Source: Dorea formicigenerans (GTDB taxonomy: Bacteria; Bacillota; Clostridia; Lachnospirales; Lachnospiraceae). Taken from it: a stretch of DNA of 64,000 bases. Under the pieces are notes generated by a model that searched no databases, had not been told where the DNA came from, and worked only from the letters and a program-made list of their open reading frames with translations. A program made the translations under genes and the position numbers. The DNA lies in assembly GCF_025150245.1 (NCBI RefSeq), contig NZ_CP102279.1:186001-250000 (forward strand), read 5' to 3'. Positions 5,430-62,645 of this stretch are shown piece after piece; the stretch's first letter is position 1, and each line of letters begins with the position of its first letter.

Positions 5430-5502
5430 GGGCGTGTAGCTCAGGTGGTAGAGCACTTGACTTTTAATCAAGTTGTCCGGGGTTCGAATCCCCGCACGCT
5501 CA
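5430..5502 (+). tRNA. tRNA-Lys (TTT), prophage integration target
   Basis: Acceptor GGGCGTG/CACGCTC, anticodon loop CTTTTAA (TTT). Its 3' part from the anticodon arm onward is repeated perfectly at 44792-44839. The intact gene here is therefore a hybrid: chromosomal 5' part, prophage-supplied 3' part. Confidence 0.95.
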
Positions 5503-5505
5503 CTG
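5458..5505 (+). other. attL core of the tRNA-Lys prophage
   Basis: 48 bp from TGACTTTTAATC to GCTCACTG, identical to 44792-44839. Sequences diverge immediately outside both copies. It lies between the tRNA 5' half and the int side of the prophage, as expected for attL. Confidence 0.93.
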
Positions 5506-5683: not shown

Positions 5684-6802
5684 TTAAAAATTAATCGCAT
5701 CATTCACAGCGCCCTCTACATCTTCACGTTCGGCCAGAATATGTGAGTACACATTCATAACCATAGCCTCTGTATCACCAAGGAGCTGTGCAATCCTTTT
5801 GATGGATACACGAGGAATCTGATAACATAAGGACGAACAATAGTTGTGACGGAACACATGCCCGGTCAATCCAACGATATCCTCTTTACACGCAGCCTGC
5901 ATCGATTCCACGATTCTCTTCCACATTTTGTCATAAGCACTTTTGGTAAGAGGCTTCTTATCTCGCATGGTCACGAAGAGCTGAGTCCGGCCGGAATGCT
6001 TAACGCTCTCTACATAGCTCTGAACCACGGGGAGAATCTTGGAAGGTATTGGAATGGTACGGATTCCATTAGAGCTCTTCGGATTCTTAACACCGGGAGT
6101 ATTTGTAATATACTCATAGGCCTTACTAATAGATACTTCACGCTTTTTGAAATTAAAATCAAATATCGTAAGTGCCACGCACTCCTCACGTCTCAATCCA
6201 CATCCATATATCAGATACACATAAGCCTGATCAGAATCATATTTATAAGTCGCGCCAAAGACGGCTTTCTTTTCGTCTGGTGTCAGAGGACGCTTTTCAC
6301 TCGGCTTATATTTTATCTTGTCGGTACTCCTAAGAATATCATCAGCCACATTAGCAGCCAGAAGCTTGTCAGACACTGCAGATTTTAGAACCGCAGAAAA
6401 GGTCAATAAAATCTGCTGTTGAGTGCGCCTCTTATCCTCTGCATTTGCTAATAAAGTTTCAATGTGAATACGCTCCACATCTTTTAGCTTTAGCGCATTA
6501 AGAGCCGTGAAGTGCTTTTCAATAATATTCTCATACATGCGCTTAGTATTATTGGAGCGCCTGGACTTATACACATTCAGCCAGCTTCGGGAATAGTCTA
6601 TGAACAATATGTCCGTATTCCTCACATAGTTCCTGGATTCAATCTGAGCTTTCATAGCAGCAACCTGACGTTCCAGGTCACGACTGCTCTTATTACTCCG
6701 GAGCGTGATCCGGTGCTTACGTCCATTCTGATCATAAGTTCCATCCCAAACCTTAGTCTGGTAATATCCGTCAGCTCCACAGGTATATTTTTTTGACGCC
6801 AT
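5684..6802 (-). CDS. int: Phage integrase (tyrosine recombinase)
   Basis: 372 residues. N-terminal AP2-like arm-binding part with KVWDGTYDQNGRKH, SAM-like core-binding domain (about 60-160), then the catalytic domain with Arg204 (GCGLRREE), His315-x-x-Arg318 (GHVFRHN) and the nucleophile Tyr352 (NVYSHIL). The site usually held by the second His is Asp in LLGDTE, a tolerated variation. It lies 180 bp from attL and reads toward it, so it is the enzyme that integrates into tRNA-Lys. A ribosome binding site (GAGAGG) precedes the start. Confidence 0.95.
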   Translation of the reverse strand: MASKKYTCGADGYYQTKVWDGTYDQNGRKHRITLRSNKSSRDLERQVAAMKAQIESRNYVRNTDILFIDYSRSWLNVYKSRRSNNTKRMYENIIEKHFTALNALKLKDVERIHIETLLANAEDKRRTQQQILLTFSAVLKSAVSDKLLAANVADDILRSTDKIKYKPSEKRPLTPDEKKAVFGATYKYDSDQAYVYLIYGCGLRREECVALTIFDFNFKKREVSISKAYEYITNTPGVKNPKSSNGIRTIPIPSKILPVVQSYVESVKHSGRTQLFVTMRDKKPLTKSAYDKMWKRIVESMQAACKEDIVGLTGHVFRHNYCSSLCYQIPRVSIKRIAQLLGDTEAMVMNVYSHILAEREDVEGAVNDAINF

Positions 6803-10853: not shown

Positions 10854-11591
10854 ATGAAAAAAAGATATAAGAGATTAACCTATGTTTTCAAAAACAGTAT
10901 AGAGGTATATGAGTATCTGGATGGTAGGTATGGAGCTCCTGGAGAGAAGAGGGAAAAGAAAAAGAAAGCCACCAAGGAAGAGATTGCAAAAAGGAATCAA
11001 TGGAACAGGGAGAGAAAGGTAAGGCATAAACTCAAGACATGGTTCCATGAAAATGACTACCTTGTCTTGCTGACTTACAAGAAAGAAGAACGTCCTCCGG
11101 ACATGAAGACAGCAAAGGCTCAATTCAAGACATGGTACGAAAAGCTTCGGAAGGAATTCCGAAAAAGAGGTGCAGAACTTCGATGGATCAGGAACATAGA
11201 AAAGGGTTTAAGAGGGAACTGGCACGTCCATGTGGTGATCAATCGTATCGAAGGTGCGGATATCCTTATCAAAAAAGCATGGCCACATGGAAGCGCAACA
11301 TTCAAGCACCTATATGAGAACGGAGACTTCGCAGACCTTGCAGGTTACATGTGCAAGACACCGGAGACGTGTGCCAGATACAATGAGAGTCTAAGTGAAG
11401 CAAGTTACTCAGCTTCCAAGAACCTTCCAGTCGAAGAGCCAAAAGTCAAAAAGCTCGCCTACTGGAGAAAAGAGCCAAAAGAAAAGGAAGGATACTACAT
11501 AGACCGGGATAGTTTCCACGAGGGAACAAACCCAAGAACCAAGTGTAAATACAGATATTACACATTGGTGAGGATTCACAGGAGGATTTAA
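10854..11591 (+). CDS. HUH-endonuclease replication initiator (rolling-circle type)
   Basis: 245 residues. After a basic N-terminal third comes LVLLTYKKE (motif 1-like strand), then GNWHVHVVINR with the metal-binding His124-Val-His126 (HUH motif), and AGYMCKTPE with the candidate nucleophile Tyr165 and Lys168 (Y-x-x-K, motif 3). These are the nicking-enzyme hallmarks of filamentous-phage and plasmid Rep proteins. It would nick one strand at an origin and stay bound to the 5' end. No strong ribosome binding site precedes the ATG. The 170-bp gap upstream carries a small antisense RNA and inverted repeats and may include the origin. Confidence 0.8.
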   Translation: MKKRYKRLTYVFKNSIEVYEYLDGRYGAPGEKREKKKKATKEEIAKRNQWNRERKVRHKLKTWFHENDYLVLLTYKKEERPPDMKTAKAQFKTWYEKLRKEFRKRGAELRWIRNIEKGLRGNWHVHVVINRIEGADILIKKAWPHGSATFKHLYENGDFADLAGYMCKTPETCARYNESLSEASYSASKNLPVEEPKVKKLAYWRKEPKEKEGYYIDRDSFHEGTNPRTKCKYRYYTLVRIHRRI

Positions 11592-14342: not shown

Positions 14343-14405
14343 ATGGGATTAGACGTTTTTGAAAATTATGAATGTGATGGTCAGATAGAAATATCTAACC
14401 TGAAA
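14342..14405 (+). repeat. 64-bp direct repeat, copy 2
   Basis: 63 of 64 positions identical to 13768-13831. Here the mini-gene frame runs straight into the ParB-like gene. Confidence 0.9.
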
Positions 14406-14414
14406 GGAGAAAGA

Positions 14415-15767
14415 ATGGACAAATTAATATACATACCGGCTGATCAGATACATGAGCATCCGGATAACCCAAGAAAAGACTTAGGAGACCTTACAGAGCT
14501 TGCTGAGTCCATCAGACAAAATGGCATTATGCAAAATTTAACCGTCATTCCGGGATACTGGGACAACAAGAGAGGATTCCACGAGGAAGAATATACGCTT
14601 CTGATTGGTCACCGACGTTATTCCGCAGGGAAGATGGCAGCAGTCACAGAGTATCCTTGCCGTATTATTACCGGTATGAGCTACAAGGAACAGGTTGGAA
14701 CCATGCTTACCGAGAATATGCAGCGCGTAGACCTTACGATTCCGGAGCAGGCAGAAGGCTTCCAGATGATGCTAGATCTTGGAGACACTGTGGAAGACAT
14801 TGCAAATAAGACAGGATTCAGTGAGAGCACAGTACGCCATAGAGTTAACATTGCCAAGCTGGATAAATCCACCCTGAAAGAAAAGAACGATGATGAGGGA
14901 TTCCAGTTAACATTAAAAGACCTGTATGAATTGGAAAAAATAAAATCAGTAGAGAAGAGAAACGAAATCTTAAGAGCTTCCTACAGCTCCACGGACTTGG
15001 CGACACGCGCCAGAAGCGCAGTAGCAGACGAAAAGAGAAAAGCAAAAGAGACAGCGATTATAGAAAAGCTAGAGGCAGCAGGCATCAAGAAAGCTCCAAA
15101 GGAAGCAGAAAACGGCATCTGGACAGGATCATGGAAAACAGTGGTTGAATACGACCTAAACAAAGATGACGATATTGGAATTCTAGATACAGAAGGGAAA
15201 TATTGGATAACTCAGTATCAGCGTATCAGAATTGTGAAAAAAGTTATAAAAAAGCAGACAAGAGCAGAAAAACGAAGAGAGAAGGAAGAAAAAGAACGAA
15301 AAGCCAGAAAAAAAGAACTTAAGGAAATCACAAGAGTGAGCACAGAAAGGCGTAAACAATTAATTCTGGACATTATTGCCGGGAAAGCAGCAAAACCGAA
15401 CGAAGAGTTGGTAAAGAACATGTGCTGGGTACTACTGGTAGAGATGGGAGGGGTATACAAAAGTCTTTTTATAAAATATTTCACTGAAAAGCACGATTGG
15501 GAATGCAACGATGAAGAAAAAGCAGAAGCGAATGAAAAAATACAAAAACTAAGCATCATGGAGCAGATGCTCATATTATTACACATGAGAATGAGCGAGA
15601 AAGAGCCGTGGGATTACAACCTTAGATACGACAAGGAAGATGGAGGAATCCTCTTAGAGTGCTACAGAGTATTTAAGATGTTCGGATGGTTCTTCGACAC
15701 AGAGCAAGAGGAACAGGTGCTGGACGGAACGCACCAATACTACAGAAAGGACGAGGATAATGACTGA
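14415..15767 (+). CDS. ParB/Srx-fold nuclease-like partition protein
   Basis: 450 residues from ATG 14415 (AAAGGAGAAAG upstream), or 474 from the in-frame ATG 14343, which also has AAAGGA 7 bp before it. N-terminal ParB domain: IPADQIHEHPDNPRKDLGDL, LIGHRRYSAGKMA (the CTP/phosphate-binding GHRR box), then TENMQRVDLTIPEQAEGF and a helix-turn-helix (VEDIANKTGFSESTVRHRV). The C-terminal half is helical with a long Lys/Glu coiled coil (about 300-340). It binds DNA; in phages it may act in replication, DNA segregation or gene control. No ParA is present. Confidence 0.85.
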   Translation: MDKLIYIPADQIHEHPDNPRKDLGDLTELAESIRQNGIMQNLTVIPGYWDNKRGFHEEEYTLLIGHRRYSAGKMAAVTEYPCRIITGMSYKEQVGTMLTENMQRVDLTIPEQAEGFQMMLDLGDTVEDIANKTGFSESTVRHRVNIAKLDKSTLKEKNDDEGFQLTLKDLYELEKIKSVEKRNEILRASYSSTDLATRARSAVADEKRKAKETAIIEKLEAAGIKKAPKEAENGIWTGSWKTVVEYDLNKDDDIGILDTEGKYWITQYQRIRIVKKVIKKQTRAEKRREKEEKERKARKKELKEITRVSTERRKQLILDIIAGKAAKPNEELVKNMCWVLLVEMGGVYKSLFIKYFTEKHDWECNDEEKAEANEKIQKLSIMEQMLILLHMRMSEKEPWDYNLRYDKEDGGILLECYRVFKMFGWFFDTEQEEQVLDGTHQYYRKDEDND

Positions 15768-17796: not shown

Positions 17797-18202
17797 AAAA
17801 GACATGGTAATTGATGCATTAAAAGAAGATATGCAAGATACCAAAAAGTGCTATGAAGGCTATCAGGAAAAGGAATTAATTGAATTTTGCTATAACTGTA
17901 TGGAACGCGTAATAGACAGACTACCACAGTATTACCCGGAAAATGTAGTAGAAGAGACAAGATGGATTCCATGCAGCGAGAGGTAGCCGGAGGATGAAGG
18001 CTACATACTGGTATCATTTGAGTTGGAGGAAGTAAAGCCAGAAAGGACAGTTCGGGAAATCAGAGAGATTCGAACACCGGATCCGGAATCCGAAGAGGAG
18101 GAAGGACAACTTCCCGGTCAGATGAGCGATGAAGATTTGTCGGAAGTAGCGGAACACATGAAAGCAATGATGAAGATTTTGGAGAAATACAGAAAGGAAT
18201 AA
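17783..18202 (+). pseudogene. DUF551-type gene interrupted by an amber codon
   Basis: From ATG 17783 the frame encodes 67 residues ending RWIPCSER, then TAG at 17984-17986, then continues open for 71 codons (PEDEGYILVSFELEE and on) to TAA at 18200. The intact paralogue at 18752 reads QWIPCSERLPKTGEYVLIS, so the TAG replaces a conserved Leu codon (TTG to TAG is one change). Either a 67-residue truncated product is made or the gene is dead. Many genes here end in TAG, so recoding is unlikely. Confidence 0.75.
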
Positions 18203-18205
18203 CGA

Positions 18206-18694
18206 ATGCCTATAGAAGCAAGACCTATGGAGCTGAAAGAAGCACAAGATTATATAAATACATATCATCGACATCACAAAGCAGCTCATAGAGATAAATT
18301 TAGAATTGCAGCCACAATAGATGGAAAAGTTGTTGGAGTGGTTCAAGTTGGCAGACCTGTATCGAGAGTATTGGACGATGGCAATACATTAGAAGTGCTT
18401 AGATTATGTACAACTGGAGAAAAGGATATATGTAGTTTTCTATATAGCAGAGCCGCACGAATCGCAAAAGAAATGGGATATTCAAAAATTATAACATATA
18501 TTCTTGAATCCGAAAATGGCGCAAGCCTTAAAGCGTCTGGGTGGACTTGTGAAGCTGACGGAGTTGGTGGATCTAATTGGAATACGCCAAGCAGACCAAG
18601 AGAGATGGTAACGAATCAAATGAGTTTATTCCCAGAAAAACAAAAATATCCGATTAATGAAAAGAAACAAAGATGGAGTAAGCAATTGAAGTAA
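18206..18694 (+). CDS. XF1762/GNAT-like phage protein
   Basis: 162 residues. RPMELKEAQDYINTYHRHHK and the later KVVGVVQVGRPVSR, LEVLRLCTTGEKDICSFLYS match the XF1762 family, which has an acetyltransferase-like fold; the C-terminal WTCEADGVGGSNWNTPSRPR is conserved in it. The substrate is unknown. It is more A/T-rich than its neighbours, which suggests separate acquisition. Confidence 0.7.
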   Translation: MPIEARPMELKEAQDYINTYHRHHKAAHRDKFRIAATIDGKVVGVVQVGRPVSRVLDDGNTLEVLRLCTTGEKDICSFLYSRAARIAKEMGYSKIITYILESENGASLKASGWTCEADGVGGSNWNTPSRPREMVTNQMSLFPEKQKYPINEKKQRWSKQLK

Positions 18695-18751
18695 CAAATA
18701 ACAGCACCTTGACAATTGAGAGATTGCCGGAACCGTATAAGGAGGGCGAAG

Positions 18752-19063
18752 ATGAATAATCAACAAGCAATAGATAGATTGGTGAAACATCTTGAATGGG
18801 GCTGGTCTAAGGAAACAGTAGATGCTATTGAAATGGGGATACATGCACTGAAAGAAACTCAGTGGATTCCATGCAGTGAAAGATTGCCGAAAACTGGAGA
18901 ATATGTATTGATATCATGCGAAGGTTTTGACGTTCCAAGCGTCGGAAAATACGAGGAAAACGATATTGGAGGAACATTCTATCTTAGAGAAGACGTACCG
19001 TGTGAAGACTTCGGAATAGCCGTAGAAGCTTGGAGACCGCTTACAGAACCATATAAGGAGTAG
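18752..19063 (+). CDS. DUF551-domain protein
   Basis: 103 residues from ATG 18752 (GGAGGGCGA upstream). N-terminal helices MNNQQAIDRLVKHLEWGWSK, then the DUF551 core WIPCSERLPKTGEYVLIS and the end AWRPLTEPYKE. A very common phage accessory protein with no known function. The sequence just upstream (18709-18759) still encodes a tail of the same kind (RLPEPYKEGEDE), a relic of a neighbouring copy. Confidence 0.75.
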   Translation: MNNQQAIDRLVKHLEWGWSKETVDAIEMGIHALKETQWIPCSERLPKTGEYVLISCEGFDVPSVGKYEENDIGGTFYLREDVPCEDFGIAVEAWRPLTEPYKE

Positions 19064-20871: not shown

Positions 20872-21903
20872 ATGTATAATGCCAGTATCAAAACCGAAAT
20901 TATTAATAATATCATCTTCGAGATGTCTGGATATGTAGACAACATGACCTTAGATATCATGCAAAAAGTCATTGAAAAACAATTAGTAGCCGTGAACATG
21001 GAAGAGATTACCAATCTTCCGGCAGAAATCAGGACATCAACCGAAGAACAGAACCGTTATTACATCAGCCTCATGATGATCAAGAAAAAGAACTTACGTC
21101 CAGAGACCAAGGCTCAGTACCGTGATGCCATTATGCGTCTTACCAGTGTCATAGAAAAGCCACTTAACAAAATGGACGAGATTGACATTGACAGTTATCT
21201 CGACTGGTATGAGAAGCGGAACGTGGCAGCAGGAGGCAAGAAGAATCAGGCGTCCACATGCAACAACGAACGCCGATACTTATCAGCCTTTTTCACATGG
21301 ATGCGCAAAGAAAAGTTCATGAGCTATAATCCGGTGGAGGCTACGGAGCCGATGAAGGAAGTAATAAAGCCAATTGATTACTTCCGGCCGGCACAGATCG
21401 AACAGCTCCGGGAGGGTTGCGTCTCTCTGAGAGACAGAGCCATCATCGAAGTGCTCAGAAGTACCGGAGCACGCGTTGGAGAAATTCCACAGATTAACAT
21501 CGATCACGTAGACTGGGCGACTGGAGACATCATGATTATGAGTGAAAAGTCTTACAAGTATCGTCTGCTGTATCTAGATGAAGTAGCCAGATATCACTTG
21601 CGGAAATACTTGGACAGTCGCACAGATGACAATGAAGCACTGTTCGTGTGGGACAAGGCGCCATATAACCGTCTAAAGAAGAGTGGCATCAGAAACGCCA
21701 TGAAGGAAGTAGGCAAGAATATGGACTGTAAAGTCTATCCGCATAAGCTCAGAAAGACTCTGGGAGTTAATCTCAAGGATAAGGGAACAGACATTGGAAT
21801 CATTCAGGAAGTGATGGGACACGCCAATCCGACTGTGACAAGTCGCTATTACGCGCAAATCAGTCCAGAGGCAATGAGAGATGTACGGAGAAGAACAGCG
21901 TAG
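20872..21903 (+). CDS. Second tyrosine recombinase (XerC/D-like)
   Basis: 343 residues. SAM-like domain (about 58-145, EQNRYYISLMMIKKKNLRPE) then the catalytic domain with Arg201 (STGARVGEI), His291-x-x-Arg294 (YPHKLRKT), His317 (VMGHANP) and Tyr326 or Tyr327 (SRYYAQ). All catalytic residues are present. It is far from both att sites and next to the late regulator, so it is not the integrase; it might resolve phage multimers or invert the fibre cassette at 39673-40394. AAGGAGG precedes the start. Confidence 0.88.
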   Translation: MYNASIKTEIINNIIFEMSGYVDNMTLDIMQKVIEKQLVAVNMEEITNLPAEIRTSTEEQNRYYISLMMIKKKNLRPETKAQYRDAIMRLTSVIEKPLNKMDEIDIDSYLDWYEKRNVAAGGKKNQASTCNNERRYLSAFFTWMRKEKFMSYNPVEATEPMKEVIKPIDYFRPAQIEQLREGCVSLRDRAIIEVLRSTGARVGEIPQINIDHVDWATGDIMIMSEKSYKYRLLYLDEVARYHLRKYLDSRTDDNEALFVWDKAPYNRLKKSGIRNAMKEVGKNMDCKVYPHKLRKTLGVNLKDKGTDIGIIQEVMGHANPTVTSRYYAQISPEAMRDVRRRTA

Positions 21904-33486: not shown

Positions 33487-36400
33487 GTGGCCAGTGACGG
33501 AACAATCCGAATCACGACCGAATTGGACAGTGCAAAAGCAGAAGCGGCAATGTCCAAGTTTTCATCATTCGCAAATAAGGCGATGACAGCAACGAAAGTG
33601 GCAGCAGGCGCGGCAACAGCCGCACTAAGTGCTATGGCAGGTTATTCAATTAAAGTTGGAGCTGATTTTGAAGCGGGAATGTCAAAGGTATCTGCTATCT
33701 CAGGAGCAACAGGAGATGAATTAAGCAAACTCACTGAAAAAGCAAAAGAGATGGGCGCCAAGACGAAATTTTCAGCTACAGAAGCATCGGAAGCCTTTCA
33801 GTACATGGCTATGGCGGGCTGGAAGACCAAAGACATGCTAAGTGGTATTGATGGAATCATGAATCTGGCAGCAGCTTCAGGAGAAAGCCTTGCAAAAACA
33901 TCAGATATTGTAACAGATGCCCTTACCGCATTCGGAATGGCAGCATCAGACAGCTCGCATTTTGCAGACGTTTTAGCAAAAGCATCTTCAAACTCCAACA
34001 CCAATGTTGCAATGATGGGTGAGACGTTCAAGTACGTGGCACCCGTGGCAGGAGCGTTGAAATTCAGCGTAGAAGACTGTGCGGTAGCAATCGGGCTTAT
34101 GGCCAATTCCGGTATTAAGGCAAGTCAGGCTGGAACATCAATGCGACAGCTGTTCACGAACCTTGTAAAACCGACAGATGCTATGGCACAGGCAATGGAA
34201 GACCTGGGAATCTCCATGACTGACGCGGAAGGAAAGACAAAATCGCTGGATACCCTTATGGGGGATCTAAGACAGAGTTTTTCTGGACTTTCAGAGGCAC
34301 AGAAAGCACAATACGCTGCTACACTGGCAGGACAGGAAGGAATGTCCGGACTGCTTGCCATTGTGAATGCATCTGATGCGGATTTCAATGCCTTAAAGAC
34401 ATCAATATACAATGCAGACGGTGCTGCAGAGCAAATGGCAGACACCATGAATGATAATCTTAAAGGAAGCCTTACAATAGCTGGATCCGCATTAGAAGGA
34501 TTCGGTATTGCAATCTATGAAAAGATACAGACACCACTCAAAAAAGCAGTAGATGCAGGAACAGAGGGTATCGACTGTCTGTCAAAAGCGTTCCAGTCTG
34601 GCGGACTGAATGCAGTTGTAGCGGAAGCTGGCGAGATATTCAATGATACTGCAGATGAAATCGCAGGAATGAGTGACGAAGCAGCCGGAGTTGTAAGGCC
34701 AATACAGGAAATCGTGAATGTAGGCGGTAAGCTTGCAAAAACAACACTTCCAGTAGCGGCAAGCGCAGTGAAGTTCCTGGCTAAGAACTTCGGAACATTA
34801 TCACCGCTTGTAGTGTCATCAGCAGCCGGAATGAAATCATTTTCAGCAATTGGCAAGGTAACGACAAAGGTTGTAAAAGCGAATGCAGCGGCTACCTTAG
34901 TACTCAATAAAATGGAGAAAGCCAATGCATTGCAGTTAATGGCGACCAATGGAGGGCTTACAGCGCGTCAGACGCTCATGGCGGTGTACAATGGTCAGAT
35001 TACTGCAACAACAGGACTTACGAGTCTGTGGACAGCCGCACAGACAAAGCTGAATGTTGCAATGACGGCGAATCCAATAGGAACAATCGTTGTAGCGGCA
35101 GCAGCTCTGGTAGGTGCCATGTATGCGATTAAAGCAGCGACAGGTGATGCGGCGAAGGCACAATATGAGCTATCGGACAGCCAGAAAGAAGCACTAAAAT
35201 CCAGTCAGGAGATTACAGATACTCTTGCAGAAGAAAGACAGGCGAGAGAGGAAGCGATTGGAAGCATTGACCGGGAATACAATAAATATTCCGCTCTGTT
35301 GTCTGAGCTGCAGTCTATCACAGATGCAAACGGTCAGGTGAAAGCCGGATACGAAGAGAGAGCAAAGGTAATCACCGGGGAGTTGTCAGAAGCACTCGGC
35401 ACCGAGATAGAAATGACAGACGGAGTAATCCAGAAATATGGAGAGACCGTCGAAGCAATCAAAGAATTGATTGTACAGAAAAAAGCAGAAGCGACCATTG
35501 ATTCTATGAAAGACGAGATGGCAGAGTCCTATCAGAAGTCTATAGATGCCGCGGAAAAATATAAAGAAGTCAGCAAAGCCTTGGAAGAACAGAAGAAAAA
35601 AGTAGCCAAGGCAGAAGATGACTGGGAAGAAGCAGCAAAACGAGGAGCAAAAGAGTTACCAAGTTACTCGGATGCGGTTGATAAAGCCAAAAGCGAACAG
35701 GAAAAACTGGAAAAGCAGTTGGACAACACCAGAAGTTCCATGGAACAGCTATCCTCAGAGGTCAACAATTACGATGCGTTGGTCGAAGCTATGGCTTCTG
35801 GAAGTTCAGAACAGATAGAAGCTGCACTGAATAAGGTGATCACAGGCTATCGCTCTTTCAACGAAGAAACCCTTGCAAGTTCGCAGAGTGCGCGTGACGA
35901 GATGTACAACACTGCAAACTCTATGATAAGCACCATGCAACTTGTACAAGATGGTACGCTCAATATGGCCGATAGTACATTTCAGCAATTATCAAAAGCT
36001 GCAGTTGATTCCATCAATGAATTTAGTAAGCTTCCGGGAGGAATTGCACAGGGAATCAAAGATATAGGACCAGAAGCCAACACGGCAATGATAAGCGCAC
36101 TGGCACAGGCAGATTTGGACGGAAAACTGGACGCCGAAGCACAGGCAGACCTAAACAGTTTTATTAACGGTTTCAACGGCCTGGATTCCAAAACAAAAGA
36201 TACATTCGCACAAGCCTGGTATGGAGCCTTGGAAGGACTGCAAGGTTTTGAAGACCTGGCAGATCCGGCAGAACAGGGAGCAGATGCATTCCTGGAGTCT
36301 TTGAGGACAGCACTGGAAGTACATTCTCCATCAAGAAAAGTGGAAGAGATATTTTCTAATGTATGGCCAGGAGCAGTACAAGGACTGGAACAGGGCACTG

Positions 36401-37308
36401 GAGAGCTGAGCACAAAAGGAAATAGTGTAATTACAGACTTTCTGAATTCCTTGCAAAGTGGCGGAGTATTGGAAGGTGCTAAAAGTATCGGAAGTAAGAT
36501 TATGAATCTGTTCGGACTAGGAATACAGTCTAAAACAGGAAATTCTAAGAATGCCGGGCGTGCTAATGCTACAGCAGCCAACGAAGGAGCTGGAAGTATA
36601 GACTCTTCCGGAGCAGGCAGTATGTTCGGTGCGAGATATGCCGCAGGAGTTGGAGCAAAAGCCAGTGAAGCTGGCGCAAAAGGACGTGCACTTGCATCAA
36701 ATGCAAAATCAGGGGCAGAATCAGCCGATGGTTATTCACCGGGTTCTAACTTTGGCTCCGGATTCGTTAGAGGTATCGGCTCCTGGGTAAGAAGTGCCGC
36801 ATCAGCGGCAGCAGAGCTGGCATCAGCAGCTTACAACGCAGTCAGAAGAACACTTGACGAACATTCCCCGTCGAGGAAAACGAAAAAGTCCGGCAAGAAC
36901 TTCGACCTTGGATTTGGTGGAGGAATTGAGGAAAACGCAGATGTGGCAGTACAGGAAGCTGAAAAGCTGTCAGAAAGAACACTGAGCGCTTTGGAATTAG
37001 AAACATTGCAAAACAAAATCAAGACACTGAATATCCCGGAAACAATGGCAATGGTTCAAACGACAGTAAACGCCCAGACGAACCGGTCGGCAGAAAAGGC
37101 AATCCGAGCCGTGAGGGTCAAAGAAGATCAGCTGTGGAAACGAAAGGACGAATCTGTAAAAGCCTATATACAGGATTCAGATATTCAGAAACTGGCATCA
37201 GAATTTGCAGGAATTGCATCTGAAGAATTTGCAAAAAACATTGATGGAATAAAAATGGTAATGGACAGACGCGAATGTGGAAGATTTGTGCGGGAGGTAC
37301 AGCAGTGA
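33487..37308 (+). CDS. Tape measure protein
   Basis: 1273 residues, GTG start behind AAGGTG. N-terminal TP901-type core domain (VSAISGATGDELSKLTEKAK, ATEASEAFQYMAMAGWKTKD), hydrophobic segments around residues 410-560, a coiled coil (about 580-780) and repeated EVHSPSRK/DEHSPSRK motifs near the C-terminus. Its length sets the tail length (about 190 nm by the usual 0.15 nm per residue). Helps DNA entry into the host. Confidence 0.93.
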   Translation: MASDGTIRITTELDSAKAEAAMSKFSSFANKAMTATKVAAGAATAALSAMAGYSIKVGADFEAGMSKVSAISGATGDELSKLTEKAKEMGAKTKFSATEASEAFQYMAMAGWKTKDMLSGIDGIMNLAAASGESLAKTSDIVTDALTAFGMAASDSSHFADVLAKASSNSNTNVAMMGETFKYVAPVAGALKFSVEDCAVAIGLMANSGIKASQAGTSMRQLFTNLVKPTDAMAQAMEDLGISMTDAEGKTKSLDTLMGDLRQSFSGLSEAQKAQYAATLAGQEGMSGLLAIVNASDADFNALKTSIYNADGAAEQMADTMNDNLKGSLTIAGSALEGFGIAIYEKIQTPLKKAVDAGTEGIDCLSKAFQSGGLNAVVAEAGEIFNDTADEIAGMSDEAAGVVRPIQEIVNVGGKLAKTTLPVAASAVKFLAKNFGTLSPLVVSSAAGMKSFSAIGKVTTKVVKANAAATLVLNKMEKANALQLMATNGGLTARQTLMAVYNGQITATTGLTSLWTAAQTKLNVAMTANPIGTIVVAAAALVGAMYAIKAATGDAAKAQYELSDSQKEALKSSQEITDTLAEERQAREEAIGSIDREYNKYSALLSELQSITDANGQVKAGYEERAKVITGELSEALGTEIEMTDGVIQKYGETVEAIKELIVQKKAEATIDSMKDEMAESYQKSIDAAEKYKEVSKALEEQKKKVAKAEDDWEEAAKRGAKELPSYSDAVDKAKSEQEKLEKQLDNTRSSMEQLSSEVNNYDALVEAMASGSSEQIEAALNKVITGYRSFNEETLASSQSARDEMYNTANSMISTMQLVQDGTLNMADSTFQQLSKAAVDSINEFSKLPGGIAQGIKDIGPEANTAMISALAQADLDGKLDAEAQADLNSFINGFNGLDSKTKDTFAQAWYGALEGLQGFEDLADPAEQGADAFLESLRTALEVHSPSRKVEEIFSNVWPGAVQGLEQGTGELSTKGNSVITDFLNSLQSGGVLEGAKSIGSKIMNLFGLGIQSKTGNSKNAGRANATAANEGAGSIDSSGAGSMFGARYAAGVGAKASEAGAKGRALASNAKSGAESADGYSPGSNFGSGFVRGIGSWVRSAASAAAELASAAYNAVRRTLDEHSPSRKTKKSGKNFDLGFGGGIEENADVAVQEAEKLSERTLSALELETLQNKIKTLNIPETMAMVQTTVNAQTNRSAEKAIRAVRVKEDQLWKRKDESVKAYIQDSDIQKLASEFAGIASEEFAKNIDGIKMVMDRRECGRFVREVQQ

Positions 37309-38138
37309 AAGACATCTATTATGTAAATAGCAATAATGAGAAGATTGACTTGTTGGAACCGCCATACATGCTTCAGACAGGAGAGCTGTTCGGATACAAA
37401 TGGAACTATGAAAGTAAACAGAGACTTGGCGGAGGTGGAAAAATCACCAATATCCGAAAAGACCTGGAAGAAAGAACACTGACATTAAGCATTGTAAATT
37501 ATGGTGTAGAAAACTATGAAGAGGCAATTGATTATTTGCATGAGATCACAGACATTGACGTCTTAAAAAAGACACCAGGAAGATTATACGTGGGAGGTAT
37601 GTATCTCAACTGCTATGTGACGGCTAGTGAGAAGTCGGAATGGGAACCGGAAGCGGGATATATAGATGTAAGCCTAACGCTTGCCGTGGAGTACCCAATG
37701 TGGGTCGGAGAAAATCCATATACATTTCATAGTTTCGGTGTAAGCAGTACGGATAATAAGAGATATCATGGAAGATATCCGTATCGATATGCGAATGGAA
37801 TGAACAGCACTTACATAATCAATCCACATTTTACGAATTCGAATTTCAAGTTGATCATTTACGGACCAGCGGTAAATCCAATGGTCACAATAGGTGGTGT
37901 ACCGTATCTGGTGAATGTGATACTGGAAGAGGATGAATACCTTGCCATTGACAGCAGGAGCAGGACCATCATAAAAGTGACAAAGAATGGCGAACGGGAA
38001 AATCTGTATCATAATCGTCAGAAAGGAAGAAACTTTTTCAGAAAAATTGATCCGGGGCGACAACCTATATCATGGACAGGCAAGTTTGATTTCGACTTAA
38101 TTATTTACGAGGAGAGAGGGGAACCGAAATGGAGATGA
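37305..38138 (+). CDS. Distal tail protein (Dit)
   Basis: 277 residues from GTG 37305 (GGGAGG upstream), overlapping the tape measure stop. LGGGGKITNIRKDLEERTLT and ASEKSEWEPEAGYIDVSLTL belong to the Sipho_tail N-domain; the C-terminal half carries GPAVNPMVTIGGVPYLVNV (galectin-like). It forms the hexameric hub at the tail tip. Confidence 0.85.
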   Translation: MKDIYYVNSNNEKIDLLEPPYMLQTGELFGYKWNYESKQRLGGGGKITNIRKDLEERTLTLSIVNYGVENYEEAIDYLHEITDIDVLKKTPGRLYVGGMYLNCYVTASEKSEWEPEAGYIDVSLTLAVEYPMWVGENPYTFHSFGVSSTDNKRYHGRYPYRYANGMNSTYIINPHFTNSNFKLIIYGPAVNPMVTIGGVPYLVNVILEEDEYLAIDSRSRTIIKVTKNGERENLYHNRQKGRNFFRKIDPGRQPISWTGKFDFDLIIYEERGEPKWR

Positions 38139-39151: not shown

Positions 39152-40012
39152 ATGTCTGGATTAAAACCAATCACAGTAAATACTCCAACAGCAGACGAGG
39201 CGCATATATACGCGGAAGATGACGCGTCCATCTACCTGAGCATGTTTGGCGGAGATGGAGTATCTACCAACGGGCAATCGTGCAAAGCCACAGTATTGTC
39301 AAATAACAAAGTAAGAATTGCAGATGGAATTATCTGTGTAGGAGGACATTTTGCCCGTATCCCTTACGGGGATTATATTGATTGCGAAATCGAAAACGGA
39401 CAGAGTGGCAAGAACAGAAACGACATCATTGTGGCAAGATTCGAAACAACCGGGACCGGCGGTATCGATACATACACATGTGAAGTCAAAAAGGGCACGG
39501 CAGGAACAACAGCAACGGATCCAGAAATTGTACAAGAAGACCTATACAAGGCGGGAAAGGTGAGAGAACTTCCTCTGTACAGGGTGAAGATAGAGGGACT
39601 GAGCATCACGGCGGTAGAACAGCTCTTTACGCTGAGAAAAACCAATGAGGAATTGGAAAAAGAACTTGCGTCACTAAATAGCAAAACAATACACATCATA
39701 GAAAATGATAATGAATATCAGATATGTAGCCTGTGTGACGGGAAAATAAAAATTGTATCTGGCAGTATTATCAAAGAAGTTCAAGGCACAGATTATACAC
39801 GCTTATTTGACAAAGATAAGCTAAGAGAAATTTTTGGTAATTCATATTATTTAACCCGACTCAGCATAAATACATATAACGGTGATAACGAAGCTACGAA
39901 TACACGCTTTTTAGGGGTAGAAAATTGGCAAGGGCACTTATATCAGTATTTTTCACAAAAGCTAAGCTGTAGTGTTCGTATTAATTACAGAATGGTTTAC
40001 ATATATCCATAA
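39152..40012 (+). CDS. Tail fibre/receptor-binding protein, expressed orientation
   Basis: 286 residues behind AAAGGAG. Residues 1-173 are a baseplate-attachment part shared by such fibres (ITVNTPTADEAHIYAEDDAS, GRNDIIVARFETTG-like KNRNDIIVARFETTGTGG) with a short coiled coil NEELEKELASLNS. From residue 175 the tip changes abruptly to an A/T-rich segment (IIENDNEYQICSLCDGKIKI and on). The change coincides with a 12-bp sequence repeated in inverse orientation at 40383, so the tip appears exchangeable by inversion with the silent cassette at 40043-40394. Confidence 0.8.
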   Translation: MSGLKPITVNTPTADEAHIYAEDDASIYLSMFGGDGVSTNGQSCKATVLSNNKVRIADGIICVGGHFARIPYGDYIDCEIENGQSGKNRNDIIVARFETTGTGGIDTYTCEVKKGTAGTTATDPEIVQEDLYKAGKVRELPLYRVKIEGLSITAVEQLFTLRKTNEELEKELASLNSKTIHIIENDNEYQICSLCDGKIKIVSGSIIKEVQGTDYTRLFDKDKLREIFGNSYYLTRLSINTYNGDNEATNTRFLGVENWQGHLYQYFSQKLSCSVRINYRMVYIYP

Positions 40013-40394
40013 GCATTTTAGTCAGAAGCAGCGATAGGCAAACTATTTCCATGTTCCAAAGCAACGCCAAAAAATCGTTATTATTTCGCTTGCAGATTTG
40101 CTTGAAGAATATATCCATGCTTGAAATAACTTTGTTCCAAACCCATTTAATGGAATTGAAATCCAAGGAGCACATGATCCGGCTGCTGTTGCTATAACTG
40201 AAACCCAGGTTTTGGATTCCATTGGGAGGGGAACATTAACTTTTCCACCAGAATAATAATTCCAATTATCTGGAGTTTGCATATTTATATCCTCAAAACG
40301 TTTACTTCCCCACATTTCAAGTGTGCCATCAGCGTATTTGCGATAATATCCATTATCATTATGACCAGATTCAATTATGCTATTGCTATTTAGT
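39673..40394. mobile_element. Invertible tail-fibre tip cassette
   Basis: Flanked by ACTAAATAGCAA (39673-39684) and its inverse TTGCTATTTAGT (40383-40394). Both copies encode Leu-Asn-Ser in the frame of the fibre. Inversion would swap the current tip for the one on the minus strand without a frame change. Confidence 0.75.
40043..40394 (-). CDS. Silent alternative tail-fibre tip (no start codon)
   Basis: Minus-strand frame open from CTA AAT AGC at 40393 to TAG at 40043, about 116 codons, with no promoter or ribosome binding site. It encodes SIIESGHNDNGYYRKYADGT, then LEMWGSKRF, a segment typical of phage fibre tips (NGYY-x-K-YADGT-x-x-WG), and ends GFGTKLFQAWIYSSSKSASE and on. An internal ATG (40315) gives a 90-residue frame, but the fibre-like sequence extends upstream of it to the inverted repeat. 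It reads as a cassette waiting for inversion. Confidence 0.75.
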
Positions 40395-40401
40395 TAAGGA
40401 A

Positions 40402-40488
40402 AATAAGCACATGACACCCATAAAAAATAAGAAAGGAGAGACTTCCTTGCGATAAATGCAATTCACACTCATATGTCATGCGCTTATT
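40402..40488. repeat. Inverted repeat beside the fibre cassette
   Basis: AATAAGCACATGAC (40402-40415) and GTCATGCGCTTATT (40475-40488) are complementary at 13 of 14 positions, 59 bp apart, immediately outside the invertible segment. A purine-rich AGAAAGGAGAG lies between them. Confidence 0.6.
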
Positions 40489-40507
40489 ATATAGAAACAT
40501 GTTAACC

Positions 40508-40527
40508 AGAGCCGAAAGGCTCTTTTT
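40508..40527 (+). terminator. Intrinsic terminator after the fibre region
   Basis: AGAGCC/GGCTCT with loop GAAA, then TTTTTAT. A second short hairpin GTGCGA/TCGCAC (40533-40546) follows before the next ribosome binding site. Confidence 0.75.
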
Positions 40528-40561
40528 ATATTGTGCGACATCGCACAGAAAGGAGGAAATC

Positions 40562-40951
40562 ATGAAACTGATATTCAACAATGCATCAGAATTAGAAATC
40601 CAGTCAGCAGACCTTCAGGCTGATGGAGGACTTCTGATCAAAACCATTGCAATCACAGAAGACGAGCTGAAGAAAAAATTCAATGATGCATCAGCAACCA
40701 AGAGAATGACCGTTACAGAGCGCGGAGAGACTCTTGGAACATACGAGAATTACACCAACCAGGACGCTATTGTGAAGTACACAGCCGGAATACTCGGCGT
40801 AGTCATGTATAAGGTTGGACAGACTCCGACAGAGCTGATGGAAGCTCTGAAGAAAGAGAATCAGAGACTGGCTGAGGAAAACAAAGAATTATCCGCGACA
40901 GTAGACACCATTTTAACAGATATCTTACCAGCACTTGAAAATGTTAAGTAG
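40562..40951 (+). CDS. Tail-associated protein with C-terminal coiled coil
   Basis: 129 residues from ATG 40562 (AAAGGAGGAA upstream). MKLIFNNASELEIQSADLQA then LIKTIAITEDELKKKF and a C-terminal coiled coil LMEALKKENQRLAEENKEL. Proteins like this follow the fibre gene in many Lachnospiraceae siphoviruses; probable virion component, role unproven. Confidence 0.65.
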   Translation: MKLIFNNASELEIQSADLQADGGLLIKTIAITEDELKKKFNDASATKRMTVTERGETLGTYENYTNQDAIVKYTAGILGVVMYKVGQTPTELMEALKKENQRLAEENKELSATVDTILTDILPALENVK

Positions 40952-41166: not shown

Positions 41167-42057
41167 ATGGCAGTAAAAACAGCACAGTATGTATTTAATG
41201 GTCAGACATATGATCTGACGTTTGATGCATCTACAGGAGAGTATAAAGCAGCAGTCCCGGCGCCTAGCAAATCCAGTTACTCACAAGATGGTCATAAATA
41301 TGGGGGCTCTGTAATAGCTACAGATGATGCCGGAAACTCAACTACAATAACTCAAAGTGATGCTACTTTCGGAGCAAATCTGTTACTTCGCGTCCTTGAA
41401 AAAGTCGCACCAACACTTGCTTTCACATACCCGACAGCTGGCGCGTATATTACAAACGCAACTCCGGCTATTAGGTTTAAGGTGACAGATGATGACTCTG
41501 GGGTAAATCCAGATACAATCGTTATCAAAGTTGATGGCGAAAAGGTAACAACCTCATTTACAAAAACAGCAGTCACCGGTGGTTACGAGTGTTCCTACAC
41601 TCCAGGAACAGCATTGGCAGATGGCGCGCATACTATTTCAATTGAAGCATCTGATTTTGATGGAAACGCTGCAACAGCTAAGACGGTCACATTTACAATT
41701 GATACAATTCCACCGACACTTACTCTTACAAATCCAGCAGATGAACTTATCACAAATAAGACAGCTCTGGTTGTATCTGGTAAAACAGACGATGTTACAT
41801 CTAAACCTGTCACAGTTACAGTCAATGGCGCATCCGTTACAGTTAATTCTGATGGTTCATTCAGCAAGGAAATTACTCTTGTTAATGGTTCCAATACAAT
41901 TACTGTTGTTGCAACGGATAAGGCTGGCAAGACTACAACTGTAACACGTAAGGTTACTCTTGATACTGGCGCACCGGTATTTAAGAAAGTTACTCTTACT
42001 CCTAACCCAGTTGACTGTGGTAAGACGTTCATTATCTCTGTTAAGGTTACAGACTAG
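41167..42057 (+). CDS. Ig-like multidomain virion surface protein
   Basis: 296 residues. An N-terminal 75-residue part is followed by tandem bacterial Ig-like domains: APTLAFTYPTAGAYITNATP (about 80-175), PPTLTLTNPADELITNKTAL (about 178-270) and a third partial domain starting GAPVFKKVTL. Each has the SDGSFSKEITLVNGSNTITV-type strand pattern. Such proteins decorate virions and bind host glycans weakly. Confidence 0.75.
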   Translation: MAVKTAQYVFNGQTYDLTFDASTGEYKAAVPAPSKSSYSQDGHKYGGSVIATDDAGNSTTITQSDATFGANLLLRVLEKVAPTLAFTYPTAGAYITNATPAIRFKVTDDDSGVNPDTIVIKVDGEKVTTSFTKTAVTGGYECSYTPGTALADGAHTISIEASDFDGNAATAKTVTFTIDTIPPTLTLTNPADELITNKTALVVSGKTDDVTSKPVTVTVNGASVTVNSDGSFSKEITLVNGSNTITVVATDKAGKTTTVTRKVTLDTGAPVFKKVTLTPNPVDCGKTFIISVKVTD

Positions 42058-44791: not shown

Positions 44792-44839
44792 TGACTTTTA
44801 ATCAAGTTGTCCGGGGTTCGAATCCCCGCACGCTCACTG
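44792..44839 (+). other. attR core (displaced 3' end of tRNA-Lys)
   Basis: 48 bp identical to 5458-5505; the former chromosomal 3' end of the tRNA gene, now without its 5' half. Confidence 0.93.
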
Positions 44840-60850: not shown

Positions 60851-60874
60851 ACATTATTGAAAGGAGTTGATACT

Positions 60875-61534
60875 TTGAGTAAATATTATTCTATACACGA
60901 ATTTTCAAAAATTATAGGCGTATCTGCTCAGACATTACGAAATTGGGATGCAAATGGAAAACTTCATCCGCATCATACTACAGTAAGTGGCTATAGATAT
61001 TATTCTGATGAGCAACTCAACCAGGTAATAAATGTAAAGCCTAAAAATCGCATTACAATTGGATATTGTCGCGTTTTCAGCCATAAACAAAAAGATGATT
61101 TGGAACGACAGATTGATAATGTTAAGACATATCTTTTGGCAAAAGGACAGCCGTTTGAGATAATAAGCGATATCGGTTCTGGGATTAATTATAAGAAAAA
61201 AGGACTTCAGGAATTGATTAGACGAATCTCTCAAAATCAAGTTGAAAAGGTTGTTGTTTTATATAAAGACAGGCTATTGCGATTTGGTTTTGAGTTGATA
61301 GAATATATCGCTTCACTTTATAATTGTGAGATTGAGATTATTGATAATACTGAAAAATCTGAGCAGCAGGAACTTGTTGAAGATCTGGTTCAAATAATCA
61401 CAGTATTCAGCTGCAAATTACAAGGAAAACGAGCGAACAAAGCTAAGAAACTTATCCGGGAATTGATACAGGAGGAAACAGATGGTAAAAGCCATAAAAG
61501 TAATGCTGCTACCAAACAACGTACAGAAAACTAA
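60875..61534 (+). CDS. tnpA: IS607 TnpA serine recombinase with changed catalytic residue
   Basis: 219 residues from TTG 60875 (AAAGGAG 8 bp upstream). MerR-like helix-turn-helix (SIHEFSKIIGVSAQTLRNWD), then the resolvase domain. The family motif RVSS...Q reads CRVFSHKQKDDLERQ: the Ser that attacks DNA (after Arg-Val) is Phe, codon TTC at 61076-61078, one base from TCC. Other core residues (KDRLLRFGFELIEY) are kept. The element is probably unable to move by its own enzyme. Confidence 0.85.
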   Translation: MSKYYSIHEFSKIIGVSAQTLRNWDANGKLHPHHTTVSGYRYYSDEQLNQVINVKPKNRITIGYCRVFSHKQKDDLERQIDNVKTYLLAKGQPFEIISDIGSGINYKKKGLQELIRRISQNQVEKVVVLYKDRLLRFGFELIEYIASLYNCEIEIIDNTEKSEQQELVEDLVQIITVFSCKLQGKRANKAKKLIRELIQEETDGKSHKSNAATKQRTEN

Positions 61535-62645
61535 GATGTTTCAGTACGCAGGTGCTTCAAGATTTGCTTATAACTGGGCTTTGGCCAGGGAAAAAGAAAA
61601 TTATGAAAAAGGTGGCAAATTCATTTCAGATTCAGAACTCAGAAAAGAATTTACAAAGCTCAGGCATTCTGATGAATACGCATGGCTGCTGAATATTTCA
61701 AATAATGTAACCAAACAGGCAATCAAAGATGCCTGTACTGCGTATAAGAACTTTTTCAAGGGTTTGCAAAAATTCCCAAGATTCAAGTCTAAAAAGAGAT
61801 TAATGCCGAAGTTCTATCAGGACAATGTTAAGATACAATTCAGTAATACCCACGTTAAGTTTGAAGGCTTTTCTTCCAGCAGGAAAGCAAATAAGCAGAA
61901 AATGAATTGGGTAAGACTTGCAGAACATGGACGTATTCCAACAGATGTTAAATATATGAATCCGAGAATATCCTTTGACGGATTGAACTGGTGGATCAGT
62001 GTATGTGTGGAATTTCCTGATTGCAAAAAAACACTTAATGATGATGGAGTTGGTATAGACTTAGGAATCAAAGATTTGGCTGTCTGCTCTGATGCTGTTG
62101 AATATAAGAACATTAATAAGAGTCAGAAAGTAAAGAAACTAGAAAAACAGAAACGCAGATTACAGCGTAGTATCTCTCGTTCTTACGAGAAAAATAAGGA
62201 AGGAGAAAGTTACTGCAAAACCAATAATGTAATCAAAAAGGAAAAACTTTTATTAAAACGAAATCACAGATTAACAAACATCCGTAAAAACTATTTGAAT
62301 CAGACCATATCTGAAATCGTAAATCGAAAACCAAGATTTATCTGTATTGAAGATCTGAATGTCAGCGGAATGATGAAAAATAGACATTTATCCAAAGCAG
62401 TTCAGGAACAAGGATTTTTTTGGTTTAGAAAACAGCTTGAATACAAATGCAGTGATAAAGGGATCCAGCTTATTGTGGCTGATCGGTTTTATCCATCATC
62501 AAAGCTTTGCAGCTGTTGTGGAAATATCAAAAAAGATTTGAAATTATCTGACAGGGTTTATAGATGTGCGTGTGGGAATATAATTGACAGAGATTTCCAG
62601 GCATCAATAAATCTTAAGGGGTATGGAGAACGATTTGCAAGCTGA
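61482..62645 (+). CDS. tnpB: TnpB RNA-guided nuclease
   Basis: 387 residues, overlapping tnpA by 53 bp. RuvC-like acids Asp193 (GIDLGIKDLAV), Glu290 (FICIEDLNVSGM) and Asp369/Asp371 (IIDRDFQASIN) are present, and the zinc finger is CSCCG...CACG. N-terminal helix-turn-helix domain intact (YAGASRFAYNWALA). Family members cut DNA next to a transposon-adjacent motif using a guide RNA made from the element's right end. The nuclease looks intact although TnpA does not. Confidence 0.92.
   Translation: MVKAIKVMLLPNNVQKTKMFQYAGASRFAYNWALAREKENYEKGGKFISDSELRKEFTKLRHSDEYAWLLNISNNVTKQAIKDACTAYKNFFKGLQKFPRFKSKKRLMPKFYQDNVKIQFSNTHVKFEGFSSSRKANKQKMNWVRLAEHGRIPTDVKYMNPRISFDGLNWWISVCVEFPDCKKTLNDDGVGIDLGIKDLAVCSDAVEYKNINKSQKVKKLEKQKRRLQRSISRSYEKNKEGESYCKTNNVIKKEKLLLKRNHRLTNIRKNYLNQTISEIVNRKPRFICIEDLNVSGMMKNRHLSKAVQEQGFFWFRKQLEYKCSDKGIQLIVADRFYPSSKLCSCCGNIKKDLKLSDRVYRCACGNIIDRDFQASINLKGYGERFAS

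Follow-up and report, generated by a model that had tools for sequence, protein, structure and literature searches.

The window analysed here, a 64,000-nucleotide stretch of Dorea formicigenerans DNA belonging to a 3.19-Mb single-contig genome, contains a prophage of about 39 kb bounded by 48-bp repeats (Table 1). Its tail region runs from a tape-measure-sized ORF through a Dit-like gene (phrog_33) and a minor tail gene (phrog_538) to a tail-fibre, or receptor-binding, gene whose constant N-terminal part matches phrog_13141/9994, of unknown function. This constant part leads into tip A, the currently expressed C-terminus, and is followed by tip B, a silent alternative on the opposite strand. 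The two tips are convergent, with their ends about 30 bp apart. The gene 3' of this cassette has homologues in L122, L125, L126 and the single-cassette prophage of genome G322, and also lies 3' of the cassette in other carriers. Additionally, the prophage encodes a replication-initiation protein (phrog_3584) and a protein with a ParB N-terminal domain, at 10854-11591 and 14343-15767. Outside the prophage, an IS607 serine transposase is followed by a TnpB RNA-guided endonuclease gene (60857-62645).

Table 1. Prophage ends, cassette elements and associated genes, in window positions
Feature	Position	Strand	Remark
Prophage left end, 48-bp direct repeat copy	5458..5505	+	Inside tRNA-Lys 3' end, beside integrase
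Integrase	5684-6802	-	
XerC/D-like tyrosine recombinase, candidate invertase in cis	20872..21903	+	PF00589, E 1.6e-27
Tape-measure-sized ORF	33487-37308		Size is the only basis
Tail-fibre / receptor-binding gene, constant N-terminal part (to ~39675) plus tip A	39152..40012	+	ORF
Left recombination site ACTAAATAGCAA, core AAATAGCAA at 39676-39684	39673..39684	+	Read Leu-Asn-Ser; L004 homology stops at 39684
Tip A, C-terminal	39685..40012	+	ON
Tip B, silent alternative	40043..40382	-	115 aa from site
Right recombination site ACTAAATAGCAA, inverted, core at 40383-40391	40383..40394	-	L004 homology restarts at 40383
Gene 3' of cassette	40478..40951	+	phrog_12931
Prophage right end, other 48-bp direct repeat copy	44792..44839	+	

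Measured from core to core, the cassette spans 716 bp (39676-40391). The original prediction had described a 12-bp inverted repeat at the fibre junction, a silent minus-strand frame reaching 40043, and a join in the same Leu-Asn-Ser phase that would make the tip invertible. The repeat is present exactly at both places, the end of the silent frame was borne out, and inversion in silico gives an uninterrupted alternative fibre without a stop. Specifically, ...ELEKELASLNSKTIHII..., which leads into tip A (111 aa from the Asn-Ser), becomes ...ELEKELASLNSNSIIESGHNDNGYYRKYADGTLEMWG..., which leads into tip B (115 aa) and terminates in FGTWK and the stop codon. The tip had also been called compositionally distinct, and GC content is indeed 45.7% in the constant part versus 32.0% in tip A and 36.5% in tip B.

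The repeat by itself carries little weight. ACTAAATAGCAA is absent elsewhere in the window at 0-1 mismatch; 0.55 matches are expected, and two or more matches arose in 11 of 100 shuffles. A repeat of this length is within chance and was discarded as evidence in its own right, so that the case rests on relatives. When positions 20001-46000 were scanned for a 10-bp inverted repeat with both tips open, the cassette site was recovered together with a repeat nested within it and one spot near 41852. A third copy of AAATAGCAA lies at 37325, near the start of the Dit-like gene. It is also present in L004 (at 8174), and L003 has AAATAGCAAGGG at that spot. This copy in the Dit-like gene is probably a matter of chance.

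The same genome provides the closest comparison. The 716-bp cassette occurs in it twice, in the window and at 1947354-1948069 within a second prophage (prophage 2), and the two copies are 100% identical core to core, their order being opposite relative to phage direction. Identity starts at 39676, and no matching DNA was found between the two prophages on the fibre side of the cassette. Downstream, similarity is 68% from about 150 bp away and 89% from 41167 on. The N-termini of the two fibres are distantly related (22% identity, E 1.6e-10). The prophage 2 layout begins with a fibre gene carrying a core and a tip, after which come an inverted tip interrupted by a stop codon and the second core. 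Next is an XerC/D-like tyrosine recombinase of 329 aa (genome positions 1948202-1949188), and beyond it lie the third core, tip B, tip A and the last of the four cores. This arrangement places a two-tip slot on either side of a dedicated recombinase, referred to below as the linked recombinase. Prophage 2 is likely a recent cassette partner of the window phage, and the complete identity could alternatively reflect gene conversion between two older copies within one genome.

A further stretch common to both prophages, at 17963-18917, covers an XF1762-family gene (18206-18694) and is 98.8% identical over 828 bp (17963-18788), with another 195 bp at 90.8%. Its 98.8% portion suggests that ordinary, recent homologous exchange between the two prophages also seems to have taken place.

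The two tips differ in how well they can be assigned. Tip B matches the tail fibre C-terminus family phrog_2712 (E 4.6e-12), and no convincing family match was obtained for tip A, which has an 81% identical relative in L031 and L033. The structural model of tip B is all-beta and of low confidence (mean pLDDT 63.8). Its best PDB ranks were held by the R2 and R1 pyocin fibres, the AP22 fibre and H-type lectins, none of them significant (E 0.013-0.045), and the model of the whole fibre was uninformative (mean pLDDT 34.9). Two further tips, from L034 and L003, gave matches to the jelly-roll family PF21454. The tip that is fused to the fibre in L030, L123 and L124 is tip B, which marks it as a working alternative and not debris.

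Two of the records that carry tip B depart from the usual arrangement. In L124 (4995-5420), a fibre of the prophage-2 type is fused to tip B with the downstream genes directly after it, and neither a second site nor a recombinase was found in that record. From its sequence, it looks like a deletion derivative. In L121 (4083-4723), tip B is paired with another partner tip, so that single tips are apparently replaceable as well.

Three cassette families recur among the relatives. Family I (716 bp) is found in the window, prophage 2, L030, L031 and L033, family II (630 bp) in L003, L030 and L043, and family III (578 bp) in L004, L029, L032, L033 and L034. Both orientations are represented in all three; families I and III occupy both slots, and family II is found in slot 2 and as a single cassette. 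For example, the family II cassettes in slot 2 of L030 and L043 are inverted relative to each other at 98.7% identity, with the flank at 94%, and the family I cassettes in slot 2 of L031 and slot 1 of L033 are 99.6% identical and inverted. The predicted two-tip cassette is therefore supported as invertible by the two orientations of the 716-bp family and by the fused tip B of L030, L123 and L124, and such a cassette is very probably real. The prediction would have been undermined by loss of the 12-mer in relatives; the sister phages L003 and L004 retain this sequence at either end of their cassettes. Inversion is seen between relatives only, without reads. In its own phage, the window cassette is known in one orientation, with no reads and no PCR, and none of the three window-type phages seen (window, L003 and L004) has tip B on.

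The comparisons also extend beyond the original prediction, as exchange of cassettes between phages appears well supported by these alignments. The window prophage, L003 and L004 are of the same phage type, with fibre N-termini in L003 and L004 that are 90% and 97% identical to that of the window, and they bear three different cassettes. Over the 10.5 kb that ends with the last base of the left core, the window matches L004 at 97.5%; an unrelated cassette then intervenes, and homology restarts, at 94%, on the base that opens the right core. This non-homologous replacement, with breakpoints at the core (39684/40383), meets the criterion for cassette exchange. The L004 cassette is in turn 97.2% identical to that of L034, and the remaining compared DNA of these two shares only an 875-bp stretch at 71%.

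A similar relationship links viral records 2846198564_000003, which has the linked recombinase, and 2846198564_000002. Their family I cassettes are 99.7% identical over 728 bp, and no other match longer than 100 bp was found between them except a repeated piece of the same cassette. The fibre of 2846198564_000002 is of a third type, with an N-terminus that matched neither of the other two. The shared number 2846198564 presumably denotes one IMG genome. L122 and L123 have the cassette in common and no flank, which also counts towards the criterion for cassette exchange. In the L122/L030 copy, N and a repeated piece stand alongside, indicating that the assembly broke there.

The system is not confined to this genome. 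Viral contigs with a recombinase of the prophage-2 type yielded 16 loci, nine of which (L029-L035, L041 and L042) have four AAATAGCAA cores in the same layout. L036 has four copies of a different core, AAATGATAA, and L028, L040 and L043, which are cut short, retain two or three cores. Paired cores thus lie beside the recombinase in 13 of the 16 viral loci, no paired cassette having been established for L037-L039. A fibre N-terminus related to that of the window (22-42% identity) was present in 10 of 18 viral records searched. A genome scan added 47 loci, mainly from Lachnospiraceae and other Clostridia, with others from Bifidobacterium and Eggerthellaceae and some remoter matches; the Bifidobacterium relatives of the linked enzyme are 36-38% identical to it. 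Variant repeated cores characterize several of these genome loci (AAATAGTAA, AAATGCAAA and TAAGTGTGA, with AACGGCCATTTG in Bifidobacterium).

The four-site layout was evaluated across 64 loci (prophage 2, the 16 viral and the 47 genome loci) by asking for one 9-mer in all four oriented slots, in windows chosen after the layout had been seen. Among fully covered recombinase loci, 17 of 55 passed and 38 did not show the four-site layout under this test, and none of 2560 block-shuffled controls passed. The Bifidobacterium loci have repeated sites, yet they fail the exact four-slot layout. Reading frames were then considered in 18 loci, namely the 17 that passed and the linked locus of G322. An N-terminal frame of at least 80 codons is open at site 1 in 13 of them, 12 with a real tip. 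In L062 the frame shuts after three codons with the 9-mer used, and L033, L051, L053, L065 and L066 have four sites and no long N-terminal frame at site 1. Counted by hand over 16 loci, of which L040 and L041 are near duplicates, 34 of the 38 silent tips can be read in the phase of the site through 88 codons or more without a stop. This count excludes the cores in the Dit-like gene (window, L003 and L004), one further L004 core and a repeated L030 core. In prophage 2 one of the silent tips is broken, as is the tip fused to the fibre in L028.

Searches with the cassette DNA itself gave no strong match in 396 other genomes of the same family, five of which had weak partial matches; the genus was represented by this genome alone in the genomes searched. 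The phage collection contained neither a match to the cassette DNA, one record matching a downstream piece only, nor a relative of the linked recombinase at 60% identity or above. Two metagenome phages with one site each, L117 and L120, were set aside as probable chance matches.

Several more distant loci were also observed. One genome (CAJTHL01) holds three recombinase loci, L067, L068 and L070, and a stretch of about 800 bp just 5' of the recombinase is common to L068 and L070, inverted, at 93.5%. In Eggerthellaceae and Bifidobacterium (L073, L074-L076, L078, L079, L081 and L092), related recombinases lie near four copies of other short sites, CTAAATAGCC, CAAATGGCCG and GCAAATAGCC, which differ from the published Rin repeat.

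These observations can be accommodated by a single mechanism, to which we assign a probability of roughly 0.87. The 716 bp between the AAATAGCAA cores would constitute a two-tip receptor-binding cassette that is both invertible and exchangeable. An XerC/D-like tyrosine recombinase, whose role is inferred, would invert it and thereby join the constant fibre, through Leu-Asn-Ser, to either tip A (the one on at present) or tip B. The cassette would also be mobile, with recombination at the short cores swapping whole two-tip cassettes between phages, and the simplest setting for such exchange would be prophages within one cell. That the cassette is active at present, and that a switch of tip changes receptor choice, are likewise inferences. 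The anatomy, the open frames, the conservation of the sites, the two orientations among relatives and the replacement with breaks at the cores are read directly from sequence.

The identity of the everyday invertase is inferred as well. The odds are close to even, without quite reaching it, that the dedicated recombinase of the co-resident prophage 2 acts in trans on the window cassette, which has no linked recombinase. This enzyme lies between cassettes with the same core, one of them identical to that of the window, and a linked-recombinase prophage with a matching core is present in three of five single-cassette hosts (G000, IMG 2846198564 and G322). In G322, which bears a linked-recombinase prophage (74%) and a window-like single cassette, the match is to a variant: each of the four linked sites has TAGAAAATT and three have AAATAGAAAATT; a perfect 17-bp repeat, AACTAAATAGAAAATTG, stands at both single-cassette sites. 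For the hosts of L003 and L004, however, no linked-recombinase record exists among the 16 viral loci, a comparison that covers viral records only and not whole genomes, and a matching core would equally be expected from cassette traffic without inversion in trans.

Action in cis is nearly as likely. Here the phage's own XerC/D-like recombinase (20872-21903) would invert the cassette, and prophage 2 would serve only as a cassette source. This enzyme, about 18 kb from the cassette, is the nearest tyrosine recombinase in the window phage and the closest relative in the genome of the linked prophage-2 recombinase (35-36% identity). Residues R186, K213, H276, R279 and Y311 (linked-enzyme numbering), which we take to be catalytic, are invariant in 14 of 14 alignment rows. 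Recombinases of the 20872 type accompany the single cassette in five of six records: the window itself, L003 and L004 (98-99% identity), the contig of L123 (37-40%) and G322 (63%). The sixth, L121, has none but is only a fragment of 21.7 kb. A tree of 33 recombinases, some of its branches long, places the 20872 type apart from the linked type, as a single group that 86% of bootstrap trees recover (support 88/51). Homologues also occur 5' of the terminase in G038 (54%) and G339 C1 (43-44%), where a scan of the tail region, judged by eye, gave no hit at a recognisable fibre end; in G213 and G339 C8 the contig stops in or before the tail. Others, at 70% identity (L046 and L047), belong to phages whose gene content differs and which lack paired TAAATAGCAA sites. 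This indicates that the gene is not cassette-specific. The proposal that 20872 is the obvious enzyme therefore holds only as a plausible one: a dedicated recombinase adjoins the identical cassette in prophage 2, and homologues of 20872 exist in phages in which no cassette was found. Some other enzyme, or both of these together, would be an unlikely solution.

The left half-site ACTAAATAG, present at the single cassettes of the window, L003, L004, L121, L123 and G322, was considered as a mark of a separate single-cassette enzyme. This idea is weakened by a linked-type G322 site (L144) that also has ACTAAATAG and by one linked-type site of L040 that has GCTAAATAG. A serine invertase could be ruled out, in agreement with the predicted absence of a Gin/Cin-type enzyme nearby, as the sole PF00239 match in the window is the IS607 transposase (60857-61534), outside the prophage.

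It is very improbable that no site-specific recombination operates today, with ordinary homologous recombination or microhomology swapping tips and the inverted silent tip a fossil, for although the two prophages share other near-identical DNA, one silent tip of prophage 2 is broken and L124, as a putative deletion derivative, has tip B fused and the second site missing, homology between the window and L004 breaks exactly at both 9-bp cores, most silent tips remain open, and the same cassettes occur in both orientations, many with a linked recombinase.

Shufflons driven by tyrosine recombinases are not restricted to phages. In the pilV shufflon of plasmid R64, the tyrosine recombinase Rci serves a constant part that has several alternative C-termini, set between short repeats; unlike a phage fibre, the product is a pilus adhesin of a conjugative plasmid. 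The record cited below as PMC6109161 is, we presume, Mavrich et al. 2018. That source describes Rin, a tyrosine-family recombinase shufflon of the receptor-binding protein in Bifidobacterium prophages, for which inversion was detected between relatives and in reads (PMC6109161). As in prophage 2, the recombinase lies beside a receptor-binding gene with a constant N-terminal part, variable C-termini of 95-100 residues and very short asymmetric repeats, and the same paper reports an orphan inverted locus without a recombinase, for which an invertase in trans was suggested (PMC6109161). Rin uses TTCCCTAACCC as its repeat, the orphan locus having the 8-bp CAGGGTTA, whereas the cores described here are AAATAGCAA and its variants, and the variable genes of Rin stand in a row between the constant part and rin (PMC6109161). 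In the clostridial system, two convergent two-tip cassettes instead flank the recombinase, and whole cassettes occur in different phages. The rix repeat TTCCCTAACCC was found in none of the 47 genome loci examined.

Other phage systems offer partial parallels. The Rin-like shufflon of Eggerthella lenta clade 1 resembles the present system in its tyrosine recombinase and small variable genes, often with H-type lectin domains; it differs in its 8-bp repeat (ttccgtat) and host phylum, and exchange between prophages is not described in the accessible portion of the report (PMC8778435). Gin, Cin and Min also invert alternative tail-fibre ends against a constant part, but they are serine recombinases (PMC6109161), and none was found in the window prophage. 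With PinQ, the recombinase of one prophage (Qin) inverts a segment of another (e14) and creates a new chimeric protein; the enzyme is of the serine type, the segment measures 1797 bp, and transfer of cassettes between prophages is not mentioned in what was available of that article (PMC12529663). The literature search, which left subscription literature mostly outside its scope and relied in part on incomplete texts, brought up no account of cassettes being exchanged between prophages.

Systems of this kind are already known from Rin. One criterion of a Rin-type system, a constant fibre part to which alternative C-terminal tips can be fused in frame through a short repeat, is met by the window phage, and so is inversion between relatives; the criterion of an adjacent tyrosine recombinase is failed by it and met by prophage 2. 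The system is a tyrosine-recombinase tail-tip shufflon of the Rin kind, with exchange between phages and with single-cassette phages that lack a linked recombinase. What the present genomic comparisons add is, in Clostridia phages, an arrangement of two slots and four tips with the recombinase in the middle; single-cassette phages without a linked enzyme; and a well-supported trade of entire cassettes at the cores, with identical copies in two prophages of the same genome among the cases.

A broader reading, which we advance tentatively and with slightly less than even confidence, is that prophages of Lachnospiraceae and related Clostridia share a pool of two-tip cassettes. Phages with the recombinase would act as banks with an active and a silent slot, and single-cassette phages would rely on a co-resident recombinase to flip and trade. 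If this is true, prophages of one cell would trade host-range modules in an integron-like manner, with the core as their shared currency. The cassette makes it testable whether the recombinase of one prophage serves another. If the overall explanation is right, the receptor-binding end of a prophage is not owned by one phage lineage: tips would flip within a lysogen and, needing only a 9-bp site and no homologous flanks, be traded between different prophages that share a cell. This would help to explain the abrupt mosaicism of phage host range, and the core with its variants would provide a readable mark for predicting which prophages can exchange their tips.
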